IMG/VR virus record: IMGVR_UViG_3300046648_000381
Location: 1 to 60,023 of that record
From: a virus
Reading direction: 5' to 3' (one strand)
DNA: 60,023 bases
In this document: positions 1 through 60,023 of the stretch, one piece after another
Numbering within the stretch: position 1 is the first letter of the stretch
Layout of the letters: each line of letters starts with the position of its first letter
The notes under the pieces: model-generated
Told to the model about the DNA's origin: nothing
The model's database searches: none
The model's input: only the letters and a program-made list of their open reading frames with translations
Program-made: the position numbers and the translations under genes

Positions 1-1110
1 TCAAGGGGTTACGAGCTTTAAGGCCCCCGATCCTCGCGACACTGGAACATCTGCGTGAACTGATCGTGAACTCGTCATTTCTCGCAGCCCATCCAAAACC
101 CTCACTGCATCTCTGACTCTGGCTGGCGCCAAGTGCGCATATCGCTCTGTCATCGTGATCGTCGAGTGGCCCAACAAATCCCGAACTTCTGCCAGCGCAA
201 CCCCCGCACTGATCAAATGTGCCGCACATGTATGGCGCAGATCGTGAATCACGAAATCCTTGATTCCGGCCCGCTCACACGCCGCCTCGAATCCCTTCCT
301 TATACAAGCCACTCGCTCGCCCGAACTTCGACTGAAGACCCACGGCGATGCTGGGCATGTCTCGGCGCGATACGCCATCCTTCCTTTAAGAGCATCCAGA
401 GCGCCTTCATTGAGCGGAATACTCCGCCGCTTGCCTGCCTTTGTGTGCTTTCCCTCCAGATAGATCAGCCGGTTGACCAGATCGACCCGGCGCCATTCCA
501 AACCCAGCATTTCCTCTTTTCGACAACCGGTGTTCACTGCAAGGTGAATGAAGTCATCCAGCAGGTCCCCGTTGCGCTGTGTTCTGGCTACCCGGCACAG
601 CGACTCAAGCTCAGCCCGGGTCAGCCATCGCACCCGGCCTTCCGGCTCGCGCAAAGTCCGGCCTTTCACCTGATTGGGCAATGCCCATTCAAATTCCACG
701 TTGCACCAGTTGATCGCTGCCGACAGTGCGGCCAATTCCCGATTTACCGTGGCCGCAGATACGCCGGATTCCATGCGCAATGTCGTGTACTCACGAATCT
801 GCTTACCCCCTAGGTCATTCATCACAACCCCTGTAAAATGGGCTCGCAATGGCTTGACCCTGTGCATGGTCGTCTCGAAACTGCGCTGATGCTGGCTGGC
901 GTGGCGCAGGTACGGGATCATCACATCATCAAAGGACCGGGGCGGATTCACGCCCCACTCCTTTTCCTTCCAGGCATCCGCCTTCGCTTGCTGCTCTACG
1001 GCTTTCGCCGCCGCATAGTCGCTAGTGCCAGAAGATCGTCGTACTCTTTTTCCGTTTGCTTCGGTGACAAAGATCCACCAATAAGGTGAATCCGCTCTTT
1101 TGTAGGGCAT
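1..1110 (-). CDS. int: Tyrosine recombinase (phage integrase)
   Basis: Catalyses site-specific integration and excision of the prophage. The 369-residue protein has an N-terminal SAM-like core-binding region and a C-terminal catalytic domain. All catalytic residues are visible: R197 (in NTGCRKEEM), H289 and R292 (in HDLRH), H315 (in LLGHS) and the nucleophile Y324 (ERYAHL). The ATG at 1110 has GGAGG upstream. The stop lies on the first bases of the window, so the left attachment site should be just outside. The N-terminal coding region overlaps the excisionase gene by 115 nt in another frame. The likely target is the tRNA-Leu whose 3' half remains at 58313-58367. Confidence 0.97.
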   Translation of the reverse strand: MPYKRADSPYWWIFVTEANGKRVRRSSGTSDYAAAKAVEQQAKADAWKEKEWGVNPPRSFDDVMIPYLRHASQHQRSFETTMHRVKPLRAHFTGVVMNDLGGKQIREYTTLRMESGVSAATVNRELAALSAAINWCNVEFEWALPNQVKGRTLREPEGRVRWLTRAELESLCRVARTQRNGDLLDDFIHLAVNTGCRKEEMLGLEWRRVDLVNRLIYLEGKHTKAGKRRSIPLNEGALDALKGRMAYRAETCPASPWVFSRSSGERVACIRKGFEAACERAGIKDFVIHDLRHTCAAHLISAGVALAEVRDLLGHSTITMTERYAHLAPARVRDAVRVLDGLREMTSSRSVHADVPVSRGSGALKLVTP

Positions 1111-47723: not shown

Positions 47724-48386
47724 TTACCTAGTCTTCTTCATGCCTGCAACGATCTCCATGAATGCGCGCGATGCGTGATTAGGGGTTCCTGCGACATCGC
47801 CAAGTTTTTTCATGAGCAGCTCTAGAGCTTCGCTAGTGCTTAACCCGAGCTGCTCGCCAAGCTGGACTAAGGATGCGTAGCTACGAGGCGTAACAGGTAC
47901 AAGGTCTACTCTTTCCGAGTCCTCATAAGCGACCCGAAGAACCATAACGTCATCCTCGTCTTCGGATCCTACAAGGGCTTTTACCGGAACGCCTAGCGCC
48001 CTCGATAAGCTTATTAGATCCTCGGGGCTGGGAGCCGCTTCACCTCGCTCGAGCTGTCTTAGCGCTACCTCTTCGATACCGGCTTCAAGTGAAAGTGTTT
48101 TGATGCTGACGCTTGCGTTTTGCCTGGCATCGAGAAGCCGCGAGGAAAACCCCTCAAACAGGCGCAGGCCTTGACCCGCTGCGGGTTTAGCCCCCTTTAA
48201 ATCCTCTGTAGCCACGCCTAGAGCTTTCGCAAGTTTCAGCATTACCGTCTTTCTAGGCATCGCCAATCCAGACTCGTATCTTGAAATCTGCGAGGAGGAT
48301 ATGCCGACAGCATGGGCCAGTTGTTGCTGAGTAAGGTCCTTTTCGACCCTCAGCGCGATTAGTTTCGTAGCGAATTCTTCAGACAT
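47724..48386 (-). CDS. Double-HTH repressor of the immI-like module
   Basis: 220 residues with two XRE-type HTH domains: EKDLTQQQLAHAVGISSSQI (about 15-34) and VSIKTLSLEAGIEEVALRQL (about 92-111). GGGGA precedes the ATG. It is divergent from the arc-like/bro operon across an operator region, so it should repress that operon, comparable in position to Mnt in P22 immI. Confidence 0.8.
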   Translation of the reverse strand: MSEEFATKLIALRVEKDLTQQQLAHAVGISSSQISRYESGLAMPRKTVMLKLAKALGVATEDLKGAKPAAGQGLRLFEGFSSRLLDARQNASVSIKTLSLEAGIEEVALRQLERGEAAPSPEDLISLSRALGVPVKALVGSEDEDDVMVLRVAYEDSERVDLVPVTPRSYASLVQLGEQLGLSTSEALELLMKKLGDVAGTPNHASRAFMEIVAGMKKTR

Positions 48387-48420
48387 TTTTATCCCCAGAT
48401 ATCACCCTAGGATAATACAA

Positions 48421-48482
48421 ACGCAGAAAACGCAAAACTTGTTTGACGTAACGCATAAAACGCAATAAAGTCAGCAAACGCA
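48421..48482 (+). promoter_or_regulatory. immI-like promoter with ACGCA operators
   Basis: Rightward -35 TTGACG (48443-48448), 17-bp spacer, -10 TAAAGT (48466-48471). ACGCA occurs at 48421, 48430, 48451, 48460 and 48478. The two pairs are near-identical 17-nt blocks exactly 30 bp apart, one upstream of the -35 and one in the spacer. A leftward -10 TATTAT (48412-48417) may serve the repressor gene. Confidence 0.75.
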
Positions 48483-48498
48483 AACAAGGAGACGTGCA

Positions 48499-48663
48499 AT
48501 GTCAACGCAAAAAATCACTACGGCAGTAAGGATGCTCTGCGATATGAGGGCGAAGCTGGAAATCCTGGCAGCAGAGAACGGACGCAGCCTGAGCGGGGAG
48601 ATCGTTTTCCGACTAAGGAAGTCCCTTGAGCAGGATCAAAATCATGAAAAGCAGCAGGCATAA
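48499..48663 (+). CDS. Arc-like ribbon-helix-helix protein (54 aa)
   Basis: Frame starting MSTQKITTAVRMLCDMRAKL with AAGGAGA upstream. The sequence LEILAAENGRSLSGEIVFRL is the Arc/Mnt-type RHH fold. It probably autoregulates the operon and limits antirepressor production, as Arc does in P22. Confidence 0.8.
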   Translation: MSTQKITTAVRMLCDMRAKLEILAAENGRSLSGEIVFRLRKSLEQDQNHEKQQA

Positions 48664-48726: not shown

Positions 48727-49590
48727 ATGACGAATACTAACACGAATGTTCTGCCTTTCAAATTCGAGGCAAAAGAAGTCCGCGCGATCATCCTCAATGG
48801 TGAGCCGTGGTTTGTGGCGAGCGATGTTTGTGAATCGCTAGAGCTGTTAGGCCGGTCCCGCAACTTTCTGCGCATGCTGGATGATGATGAAAAGGGGGCT
48901 CACAATGTGAGCACCCCTGGCGGCGACCAAGAAGTGCAGATCATCAATGAGTCCGGCCTCTATTCGCTGACCTTTAAAAGTCGCAAGCCAGAAGCTAAGC
49001 GATTCAAGAAGTGGGTTACATCTGAAGTCCTGCCAGCTATTCGCAAGCATGGCCGGTATGAGGATGGACAGGGAAGAATGGCTACGCTGATCGGCCAGAC
49101 CATCGGCACCGACGGCTTTCATATGCTCGGCGCGGTGATCAAGGGCAAAGTTACTAGCCTGCCACTTTCTATACAGCGCCGCGCCACTGCAAAGCTCTGG
49201 TCGCAAACTCATGCAGCGTTCGGCGTGCGTTCGGCGGCTGACATTCCTGCCGACCAACTCGACTCCGCCAGAAACTTCATCGCAGCATACGAAGTGAAGG
49301 AGGGCGAATACATCCAGGGTCCAAGCAAAAAGGAAGGCATTCATCTGGACCGCGTTGAAACCCAGCATCTGTACTTGCTGATGTCTTGTTTTTCAGCCAT
49401 GCACAAATACAAGCGCGACATGCTCCAAGCGGCGCGAGCGCTGGACTCTCGCCCGCTGATGGCATTTTTCGATCAGTTGCAGGGCGGGCACTCCGCATTT
49501 TTCAATCTCGATAAGCGTCGCGAAGAGATCTACGCCCAATACACCAGTTTTGGCATGCGTGGCGGTTACGCCATGGGGAGTGCAGCATGA
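48727..49590 (+). CDS. BRO-N family antirepressor
   Basis: 287 residues. The Bro-N domain is clear: NGEPWFVASDVCESLELLGR, then INESGLYSLTFKSRKPEAKR and KKWVTSEVLPAIRKHGRYED. The C-terminal part is variable, as in phage antirepressors. GGAG upstream. The stop overlaps the next start (ATGA). Confidence 0.88.
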   Translation: MTNTNTNVLPFKFEAKEVRAIILNGEPWFVASDVCESLELLGRSRNFLRMLDDDEKGAHNVSTPGGDQEVQIINESGLYSLTFKSRKPEAKRFKKWVTSEVLPAIRKHGRYEDGQGRMATLIGQTIGTDGFHMLGAVIKGKVTSLPLSIQRRATAKLWSQTHAAFGVRSAADIPADQLDSARNFIAAYEVKEGEYIQGPSKKEGIHLDRVETQHLYLLMSCFSAMHKYKRDMLQAARALDSRPLMAFFDQLQGGHSAFFNLDKRREEIYAQYTSFGMRGGYAMGSAA

Positions 49591-50162
49591 GCATGGAAAT
49601 GTTGAACATCCGCATCACTGGCACCTCGCCGCTCATGATGCACAGTGACCGGCTGGCAAACCCTCTACTGCCAGAGACCAAAGCTCACAAGGAGCTGACC
49701 GGAAAACGCAAAAAAACCGACGACGATCATTTGGCAATTGCTCGATCCGAATTCGTCTCAGGTGCGTATTTCGACGAGAAAACAGGTTTCTTCGTACCGG
49801 GCCAAAACTTCGACGCGACGTTTTGGGCGGGAGCAAAACTCCAAAAGCTTGGCGTCCATTGGAAGCGCGGCGCCATGGTTATGACGGACAAGGCGAAGCT
49901 TGAGTTCGATGGCCCAGACACTCCTGCCAAGCTCTGGGAAGACACTCGCTTCGTTGACTGCCGGGGCGTGAAAGTAGGGCAGGCGAAGATCATGCGCTAT
50001 CGCCCGATCTTCCTCGACTGGGCTGTGACGCTTGAAGTTGTGGTAAACCCTGATGTTCTGGACTTGAAGGAGGCCAAGAAGGCTATCTCAGACGCTGGAA
50101 AGCTGATTGGCGTCTGCGAGTATCGCCCGCGCTTCGGGCGCTTCGAGGTGGCTTATGAGTGA
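49587..50162 (+). CDS. Unknown protein with RAMP-like features, linked to the RNA array
   Basis: 191 residues. The N-terminus (LNIRITGTSPLMMHSDRLAN) resembles the first strand and 'PLLMH' turn of RAMP/Cas7-type proteins. The C-terminus (GKLIGVCEYRPRFGRFEV) resembles the glycine-rich loop before the last strand. Between them lie a Lys-rich segment (KELTGKRKKTDDD) and basic strands. These are visual similarities, not a proven family match. It overlaps both neighbours and lies 458 nt before the pentamer array, making it the best candidate RNA-binding partner. Confidence 0.6.
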   Translation: MSMEMLNIRITGTSPLMMHSDRLANPLLPETKAHKELTGKRKKTDDDHLAIARSEFVSGAYFDEKTGFFVPGQNFDATFWAGAKLQKLGVHWKRGAMVMTDKAKLEFDGPDTPAKLWEDTRFVDCRGVKVGQAKIMRYRPIFLDWAVTLEVVVNPDVLDLKEAKKAISDAGKLIGVCEYRPRFGRFEVAYE

Positions 50163-50619
50163 GGTGGCGCGTTATCCATTGTGGCGTCAGGCCGTGCAAG
50201 ACTTCATAGCCGAGTTCGAGTATGGCGATATCGTTGGGCATGACTGGCTCGAAACGAGATTCGGTATGCCGGGTCTCGCGGAAGACCAGCAGCTCACATC
50301 TGACAAGTTTCGGGAGCGGCAATTCGAATGGTTGGCCAACGTTGAGGCATTCAAAACTGAGCTGCTTCGTGACCACCAGATTTGCCTGCAATCCATCCGT
50401 GGCAAGGGCTACCGGTGGGTGCCGCCGAACGAGCAGACCGATATCGCGGTCGCCGACTTCCAGCGTGGAGCGAAGAAGATTTTCAGCTCAGCAGGACAGA
50501 AGCTGCGCAATCTCAGGCTGAGCGAGCTATCTGATGGTGAGCGCAAGAGCAATATTGATGCCGTCGCAAAGCTTTCAGCTCTCCAGGGTATGGCGGCAAA
50601 AACATTGATCACCGAATAA
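50155..50619 (+). CDS. Unknown wHTH-like protein immediately before the RNA array
   Basis: 154 residues from the ATG at 50155, overlapping the previous gene by 8 nt. The first 110 residues look like a winged helix (YGDIVGHDWLETRFGMPGL ... LQSIRGKGYRWVPP), followed by a helical C-terminus. The stop codon abuts the first base of the array. No family recognised. Confidence 0.6.
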   Translation: MSEVARYPLWRQAVQDFIAEFEYGDIVGHDWLETRFGMPGLAEDQQLTSDKFRERQFEWLANVEAFKTELLRDHQICLQSIRGKGYRWVPPNEQTDIAVADFQRGAKKIFSSAGQKLRNLRLSELSDGERKSNIDAVAKLSALQGMAAKTLITE

Positions 50620-51103
50620 GCATCGCGGCGAGCCATGACCTGATGCGGTCGGGCCTGCTGAGGTGAGGTAGGGCTAGGTTTGATAGGGGCTGCAAGCAGC
50701 GTTCAGCCACTTCTCGCGAGGTGGTTGAGCGGTGTGAAAGCATCACAAAGAAAGGCACGCCGGGCTATGGCTTGGCTTGGCAAGGCGGGGCGAGGCGCGA
50801 CAAGTTATGGGCTGAAAACAGCGTACTGGGTTTTCTTACGAGAACTCAGTGCGGTGCGAAGGCATCAATGGTTGGGCGCGGCTTGCCTAGGTCGGACTTG
50901 GAAAGGTCGGGCACGGCGAGGTAAGGGCTGGTAACAGCGTAATACCGATTGGTGACAGTCGGTATTGCGATGTGAAAACATCATTAGGTCTGGCCTGGCT
51001 CGCTCTGGTACGGCGTGACGTGGCAAGGTCTGGCTTGCTTCGGCATGTTTAGGTATGGGCCGTAAACGGCATTGGATAGGCACCTTCGGGTGCCTTTTCT
51101 TTT
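50620..51103 (+). ncRNA. Tandem structured RNA array with GGYNN pentamers
   Basis: Four units. Pentamer runs of consensus GGYNN: 50627-50686 (12), 50754-50808 (11), 50870-50924 (11), 50987-51056 (14). Each run ends in GG plus a 4-bp hairpin: 50689-50700, 50811-50822, 50927-50938, 51059-51070. Units 2-4 also carry GT, a 26-nt hairpin (11 bp, 4-nt loop: 50703-50728, 50825-50850, 50941-50966), GC, and a 14-nt hairpin (5 bp, loop GAAA or GAAG: 50731-50744, 50853-50866, 50969-50982). A UUCG terminator closes the array. It does not look coding. Likely co-transcribed with the operon from 48466. Confidence 0.85.
51078..51103 (+). terminator. UUCG-loop intrinsic terminator of the RNA array
   Basis: AGGCACC/GGTGCCT 7-bp stem, TTCG loop, then TTTTCTTTT. 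It ends the array transcript 3 nt before late element 9. Confidence 0.92.
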
Positions 51104-51106
51104 GGC

Positions 51107-58402: not shown

Positions 58403-58712
58403 GTTTCAGCGTTTTGTTTTTCGTGCCGCAGGTCAGTCAGCCCAGGCTGCCGCCGGTCTTGCGGGGCGTGTTTCATGGTTGGAGGCGGTGTCAGGGTCTG
58501 CGTATTCCTTCCTTTATATAAAGGCCGGGCCAGACACCTTTTTGGCAGATGGAAGGCAGTCCCGATTGCCCTCAGCTGTCCGCCTGTCTCCGGCACCCTA
58601 ATTTGCCCTTTTTCAGTAGGGTGACTTCTTGAGTTCGACCCACTAGAATGCTTGCCCTTAGATTCTGGGGTCGGGAAACGGCCGGCTAACGTCTGTGCAA
58701 CGAGGAATATCC

Positions 58713-60023
58713 ATGCAAGTTTCTGTTGAAAATACTTCCGCTCTTGAGCGCCGCATGACCATTGGCGTGCCTGCCGAACGCATCGAGACTGAAGTCAACA
58801 AGCGTCTGCAGCAGACTGCACGCAATGCCAAGATTCCAGGCTTCCGCCCTGGCAAGGTGCCAATGAGCGTGATCCGTCAGCGCTACGAAGAAGGCGCGCG
58901 TCAGGATGCACTGGGCGAAGTCATCCAGGCTTCGTTCTACGAAGCTGTTGTCGAGCAAAAGCTGAACCCGGCAGGTGCTCCTTCCGTAGAGCCCAAGTCC
59001 TTTGAAAAGGGCAAGGATCTGGAATACGTAGCCACCTTCGAAGTGTTCCCGGAGTTCACCGTTGCCGGTTTCGAGTCGATCGCTGTAGAGCGTCTGTCGG
59101 CCGAAGTCGCTGACAGCGATCTGGACAACATGCTGGAAATCCTGCGCAAGCAGAACGTTCGTTTCGAAGTGGCCGATCGCGCTGCCCAGAACGAAGACCA
59201 GCTGAACATCGATTTCGTCGGCAAGGTCGACGGTGAAGTCTTCGCAGGTGGTTCGGCCACCGGCACCCAGCTGGTTCTGGGTTCCGGCCGCATGATCCCG
59301 GGCTTCGAAGACGGTCTGGTGGGCGCCAAGGCTGGCGAAGAGCGCGTGCTGAACGTGACCTTCCCAGAGGACTACCAGAATCTGGAGCTGGCTGGTAAAG
59401 CTGCTGAGTTCACCGTTACCGTCAACACTGTTTCCGAGCCTAAGCTGCCTGAGCTGAACGAAGAGTTCTTCAAGCAGTTCGGCATCAAGGAAACCGGCAT
59501 CGACGGCTTCCGCACCGAAGTTCGCAAGAACATGGAGCGCGAGCTGCGTCAGGCTATCAAGTCCAAGGTCAAGAATCAGGTAATGGACGGCTTGCTGAGC
59601 GCCAACCCGATCGAAGTACCGAAAGCCCTGCTGGAAAACGAAGTCAACCGTCTGCGCGTGCAAGCGGTTCAGCAGTTCGGTGGCAACATCAAGCCTGACC
59701 AACTGCCGGCCGAGCTGTTCGAAGAGCAGGCCAAGCGCCGCGTCGAGCTGGGTCTGATCGTTGCTGAAGTGGTCAAGCAGTTCGAACTCAAGCCTGATGA
59801 CGCCCGCGTTCGCGAGATGATCCAGGAAATGGCTTCCGCTTATCAGGAGCCTGAGCAGGTTGTGGCCTGGTACTACAAGAACGAACAGCAAATGAACGAA
59901 GTGCGTTCGGTTGTGCTGGAAGAACAAGTTGTGGATACTGTTTTGCAGAAAGCGAGCGTGACCGATAAAGCGGTCTCGTACGAAGAAGCAGTCAAGCCGG
60001 TAGAAGCTCCACAAGCCGACTGA
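58713..60023 (+). CDS. tig: Trigger factor (host)
   Basis: 436 residues. Ribosome-bound chaperone and peptidyl-prolyl isomerase. The N-terminal ribosome-docking signature is GFRPGKVP (about residues 44-51), the FKBP-like domain follows ([20 protein letters not shown]) and the C-terminal arms complete the protein. The ATG at 58713 follows GAGGA; an in-frame codon at 58695 lacks support. The gene is complete and ends at the last base of the window. It is not part of the phage. Confidence 0.98.

Follow-up and report, generated by a model that had tools for sequence, protein, structure and literature searches.

Based on computational analysis of a 60,023-nt stretch of viral DNA (IMG/VR record IMGVR_UViG_3300046648_000381, positions 1 to 60,023; here called the window), we identified a locus that is very probably a VIPR system carried by a provirus and working by RNA-guided DNA silencing as proposed for such systems; its most likely placement is the type II / Pseudomonas fulva-prophage clade. 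VIPR (Viral Interference Programmable Repeat) was described in a 2026 bioRxiv preprint, the sole paper found by full-text search, and consists of Vipr, a RAMP protein borne by phages, together with an accessory gene (vap) and vrRNAs that combine YNNGG repeats with a structured tail (PMC13142463). The vrRNA guides contain 9-16 YNNGG (GGY/NN) units and bind DNA via the NN bases only, with one target base skipped between the pairs (PMC13142463). In the window we found a Vipr homologue with a RAMP fold, a vap gene, YNNGG guides and structured 3' tails, and the 1-nt-skip code was observed both clade-wide and for guide 1. The locus is new; VIPR as a kind has already been reported. By computation we showed the genes and their homology, the protein fold, the register of the repeats, covariation in the tails, co-occurrence, the 1-nt-skip code and one target class. 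As a way of recognising DNA with RNA guides, VIPR has only recently been reported and may be pre-CRISPR. The present locus contributes a well-resolved member in which all four guides could be decoded, together with an independent statistical check that confirms the 1-nt-skip code for the Pseudomonas clade. It also supplies a concrete target prediction (Arc-type repressors) and a testable idea of how phages of this sort spare their own genes.

The vipr gene (ORF1, 49587..50162, + strand) encodes a Cas7-type RAMP protein of 191 aa (phrog_4652) and is followed on the + strand by vap (ORF2, 50155..50619, ATG start at 50155), which encodes a winged-helix-like accessory protein of 154 aa (phrog_5926). 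The bro/ant antirepressor gene (48727..49590, + strand; Pfam Bro-N, 1.2e-24) overlaps the start of vipr by 4 nt and is probably its operon neighbour, ORF2 overlaps ORF1 by 8 nt, and a gap of 8 nt separates the ORF2 stop (50619) from the first guide unit (50627). The original prediction had described the two genes as overlapping each other and bro, with the second stop adjoining the array, and its coordinates proved exact. Further upstream lie a divergent Xre-type regulator (47724-48386, - strand) and the Arc-type gene of the window's own phage (48499-48663, + strand), and between them are five AAACGCAA-like repeats, three of them exact (48419..48510, + strand). These repeats are possible operators of the VIPR operon, which the divergent Xre-type repressor probably controls, as judged from this arrangement. 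An integrase gene is located at the left end of the window (1-1110), and a trigger factor (tig) reading frame that looks complete lies at the other end (58695-60023), which marks the record as a provirus that includes some flanking host DNA. The carrier of the VIPR locus is a Pseudomonas prophage.

ORF1 was 42% identical to the Vipr of Escherichia phage SUSP1 (ALH47069.1), and a 99%-identical vipr is present in another virus. An AlphaFold model built on 41 homologues (pLDDT 93.5) was compared with known structures, and the Foldseek matches listed were all CRISPR-complex proteins, mostly Cas7-type proteins of type III and type VII (best E 4.8e-05). The best structural match was Csm3 (8do6_E; VIA-align Z 11.0, 152 residues, 3.3 A). 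The earlier suggestion of a RAMP/Cas7-like protein was thus borne out as a Cas7-type RAMP fold. The features on which that suggestion had been based were also recovered, with the N-terminal strand modelled at E4-12 and G175, R180, P181, G184, R185 and F186 of the G-rich C-terminal end invariant in 44 homologues. The K40-K43 block is invariant among the homologues as well. In the published Vipr, a G-loop and a thumb contact the guide RNA (PMC13142463), and the invariant residues of ORF1, as seen in the sequences, would be compatible with such a role. Neither ORF1 nor ORF2 gave anything significant in Pfam, NCBIfam or PADLOC, and they matched only the unnamed PHROGs 4652 and 5926, respectively, so the system is easily overlooked.

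The ORF2 family was matched by hhalign to the SUSP1 accessory protein ALH47068.1 (98.9% probability, E 2.3e-17), and a Vap homologue was present in 80 fetched loci. The ORF2 model (pLDDT 89.5) had no confident match in Foldseek (best E 0.12); its structural matches were weak, and many of them were winged-helix DNA-binding proteins, which amounts to a tendency only. With this tendency and the SUSP1 homologue, the idea of a wHTH-like second protein as a partner of the first is plausible.

Downstream of vap, on the + strand, are four guides, each made up of about 11-15 GGY-NN units and followed by a structured tail. The guide of vrRNA 1 (50627..50686) has 12 units (NN = GA AT CT GC CG CT GA GA AG TA TT AG) and its tail (50687..50745) forms hairpins I, II and III. 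The guides of vrRNA 2 (50754..50808; NN = AC GG AT TT TT AA GG GA GC AA AT) and vrRNA 3 (50870..50924; NN = TG GC TT TA CG TT AA CG AC GA AA) have 11 units each, with tails at 50809..50867 and 50925..50983, respectively. The guide of vrRNA 4 (50984..51056) has 14 full units and a leading TTA (NN = TA CT CT TC CT AC GT GT AA CT TT TC AT TA AT), and in its tail (51057..51105) hairpin I (GCCG/CGGC) is followed by an intrinsic terminator (stem 51078-51095) that replaces hairpins II and III. A log-odds GGYNN scan found runs at 50627, 50754, 50870 and 50987 with scores of 33, 29, 39 and 44, compared to 20.8 for the best run in 40 shuffles of the whole window, and in the array region the top four runs summed to 127, whereas none of 500 shuffles exceeded 43. 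With the four runs so far above the shuffles, the array and its 5-nt register are real. The reading of one pentamer per Vipr subunit, which the original prediction had put forward, agrees with the published model (PMC13142463). Several units depart from GGY (GACAA, GTTAT, GGAAA), and imperfect units of this sort recur in other arrays.

In the tails an invariant GGGCUG....CAGC hairpin (I) comes first, then a long hairpin (II) and then a short one (III). Among 40 tails of the clade hairpin I was invariant, and all 10 of the 10 pairs of hairpin II showed double-sided compensatory change, showing that structural selection acts on the + strand as an RNA. No Rfam family reached its gathering score, and a sub-threshold match to 'sar' was on the opposite strand only. 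A CRISPR array was also considered and rejected, as there is no repeat-spacer structure and the best repeat family (32 nt, 66-78% identity) is the guide-tail junction.

Of the homologue loci, 92 offered 900 nt or more of downstream sequence, and 90 of these (91 when a GGA-type array is counted) had same-strand GGYNN runs within 3 kb on either side of the gene; a single run was on the opposite strand. The neighbourhood check that had been proposed thus found that homologues are not widespread without an array, and vipr and the array are coupled. The two loci without a GGYNN array are L097, which has a GGA-NN array with its own tail, and L045, in which vipr is truncated. At L097 (3480-3960) a distant homologue (36% identity, Candidatus Zixiibacteriota MAG) adjoins the GGA-NN array with its repeated tail CTTTCCTTCTAGGCGTACAG; judged by its letters, with a purine where the others have C or T, this array is a variant of the code. 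The phage of L045 (2378-2935 and 4001-4460) has the truncated vipr with neither array nor vap, and the Arc-type gene matched by guide 1 of the window is located 1.3 kb upstream. Homologues of bro were found in 42 fetched loci, so bro is an optional neighbour that is not needed for VIPR.

To read the guides, 205 non-redundant guides from the homologue loci were compared with all loci, with the arrays masked, at skips of 0, 1, 2 or 3 nt. Matches of at least 85% were obtained for 2, 27, 1 and 2 guides, respectively. The 1-nt-skip code is a statistical property of this clade, and the VIPR decoding rule was re-derived here independently on separately gathered data, some loci of which may overlap those of the preprint. 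For 20 of the 28 best hits the skipped base was the third (wobble) position of a codon in the longest ORF (P = 4e-5 versus one third expected, an approximate value because of relatedness among the guides and targets). The guides matched genes of other phages in both sense and antisense.

Under the 1-nt-skip code the target site of guide 1 is GAnATnCTnGCnCGnCTnGAnGAnAGnTAnTTnAG, and the codons that the guide spells out are "AEI-ARLEES", which are conserved in Arc-type repressors of phages. Its match to the Arc-type repressor gene in L045 was 21/24, a value that none of 400 guides with permuted units reached. A pattern made from 9 units of guide 1 gave 45 sites in IMG/VR, about 44 of them Arc (33 by a strict Arc-context test and 11 by eye), compared to 5 sites, none evidently Arc, for the 2-nt-skip control. 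The best viral matches were 22/24 (L136, L139, L132, L121), and the phage's own Arc-type gene matched at 14/24. No match at up to 3 mismatches was found for guide 1 in 398 genomes, a sample of the one genus Pseudomonas, and exact 9-unit scans with guides 1 and 4 found nothing. With 22/24 as the best viral match and none in the genomes, the true target was not seen among the sequences searched. Arc-type repressor genes are the predicted target of guide 1; the Arc motif is common, so many Arc genes match in part and the match does not fix the particular phage aimed at.

For guides 2-4 no convincing target was found in the loci, in viral contigs or, for guide 4, in the 398-genome sample. The one hit of guide 4 in that sample (3 mismatches) was attributed to chance, with the reversed-pattern control giving two. 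In viral contigs, the hits of guides 2 and 4 were rejected because their extension was no better than chance, and near-identical 19/22 sites of guide 3 in five contigs were rejected as targets for want of a recognisable protein in the matching frame. This outcome, together with the units that depart from GGY, would fit a VIPR relic in which the genes are intact and guides 2-4 drift without live targets. We consider such a relic unlikely, given that both ORFs are intact and that another virus carries the nearly identical vipr; moreover, rival phages are thinly covered by databases and the imperfect units have counterparts in other arrays.

Targeting of one VIPR system by another has already been mentioned (PMC13142463), and L024 and L033 have guides that read the vipr genes of other phages at the codons for the conserved KAHKELT-KRKK stretch. 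The window's own vipr (49674-49709) is a predicted target of both guides (20/22 for L024 and 19/24 for L033). When tested against its own guide, the vipr of L024 matched at 17/22, with only 2 of 53 vipr genes lower, and that of L033 matched at 15/24, the lowest of 53. Additionally, guides of six phages (L006, L011, L012, L021, L040, L087) matched one tape-measure segment of L024 (6171-6227, Pfam TMP_2) in overlapping registers. Guides against rivals' vipr that match their own poorly, and the convergence of several phages' guides on one tape-measure gene, are further additions to what is known of VIPR. We lean somewhat towards the view that guides of these Pseudomonas phages target the most conserved codons of their rivals (vipr KAHKELT-KRKK, the Arc motif and the tape-measure motif) and that their own copies have diverged there, so that self and non-self would be told apart by wobble-independent codon divergence and not by a PAM; the self-sparing pattern comes from a small set and is in part affected by the choice of best hits.

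The closest solved folds of ORF1 are RNA-targeting type III Cas7/Csm3 proteins, and the Cas7-like protein and its array might accordingly act on RNA or on the phage's own transcripts, for example as an RNA chaperone or autoregulator, instead of providing DNA-targeting guides. This appears highly improbable in view of the 1-nt-skip matches that guides make, in either sense or antisense, to genes of other phages, and of the own gene matching less well in the 13 cases with a detectable own homologue (a partly selected set; the comparison over 53 vipr genes is stronger). Furthermore, the homologous SUSP1 Vipr-vrRNA complex binds dsDNA, represses in either strand orientation and blocks transcription (PMC13142463). 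The GGC-rich low-complexity look of the array and its lack of annotation in Pfam, NCBIfam, PADLOC and Rfam might suggest a degenerate simple-sequence repeat rich in GC, or a recombination patch, beside unrelated phage genes. This reading is contradicted by the register, the tail covariation, the conserved place beside vipr and the code-following target matches, and we practically discount it.

For DNA silencing by VIPR, expression, RNP formation, DNA binding and repression at the window locus would be expected by analogy with the SUSP1 experiments. Four vrRNAs of roughly 100 nt each would be transcribed with the operon, ending at the terminator (51078-51095), and each would be coated by Vipr. 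In each unit GGY would serve as scaffold and NN would read two DNA bases with the third skipped, so that 11-15 units would specify a DNA site of 33-45 bp without a contiguous duplex. The DNA-bound complex, assisted by Vap, would then block transcription of the target. In a lysogen it would repress the Arc-type regulators of rival phages, and could either block or induce the competing phage. We infer that its biological role is to shut off the repressor gene of a competing phage or prophage.

Seven Vipr types have been published, with SUSP1 belonging to type II (PMC13142463), and the window locus is probably type II as well, an assignment made by similarity to SUSP1 and by the accessory gene and not from a seven-type tree. 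Applied to SUSP1, our GGYNN parser found one run upstream and three downstream, the same as the preprint's RNA-seq, which gave one vrRNA upstream and three downstream of vipr (PMC13142463). Both systems are phage-borne and share the related Vipr, an accessory homologue at the same position, GGY-NN guides that carry structured tails, and the 1-nt-skip code. However, all four guides are downstream in the window, the tail hairpins differ, the window operon is coupled to a bro gene, and the SUSP1 target is a satellite phage whereas an Arc repressor is predicted here. The VIPR of P. fulva prophages is apparently of the same clade, judged by host genus. The targets reported for it are for the most part lysogeny regulators of prophages resident in Pseudomonas (PMC13142463), and guide 1 of the window suggests a similar targeting of lysogeny regulators. 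With the Cas7 proteins of class 1 CRISPR systems (Csm3, Cmr4, type VII Cas7) ORF1 shares the RAMP fold along almost its entire length (Z about 10-11), but identity is about 10%, the window has no repeat-spacer array and the guide-target pairing is non-contiguous. A VIPR locus was also found in Pseudomonas phage vB_Pae_LESphi2 (L084; OQ594955.1), which is LES prophage 2 of P. aeruginosa LESB58, with a 46% identical Vipr and three guide runs upstream of vipr, and its proteins are annotated only as hypothetical.
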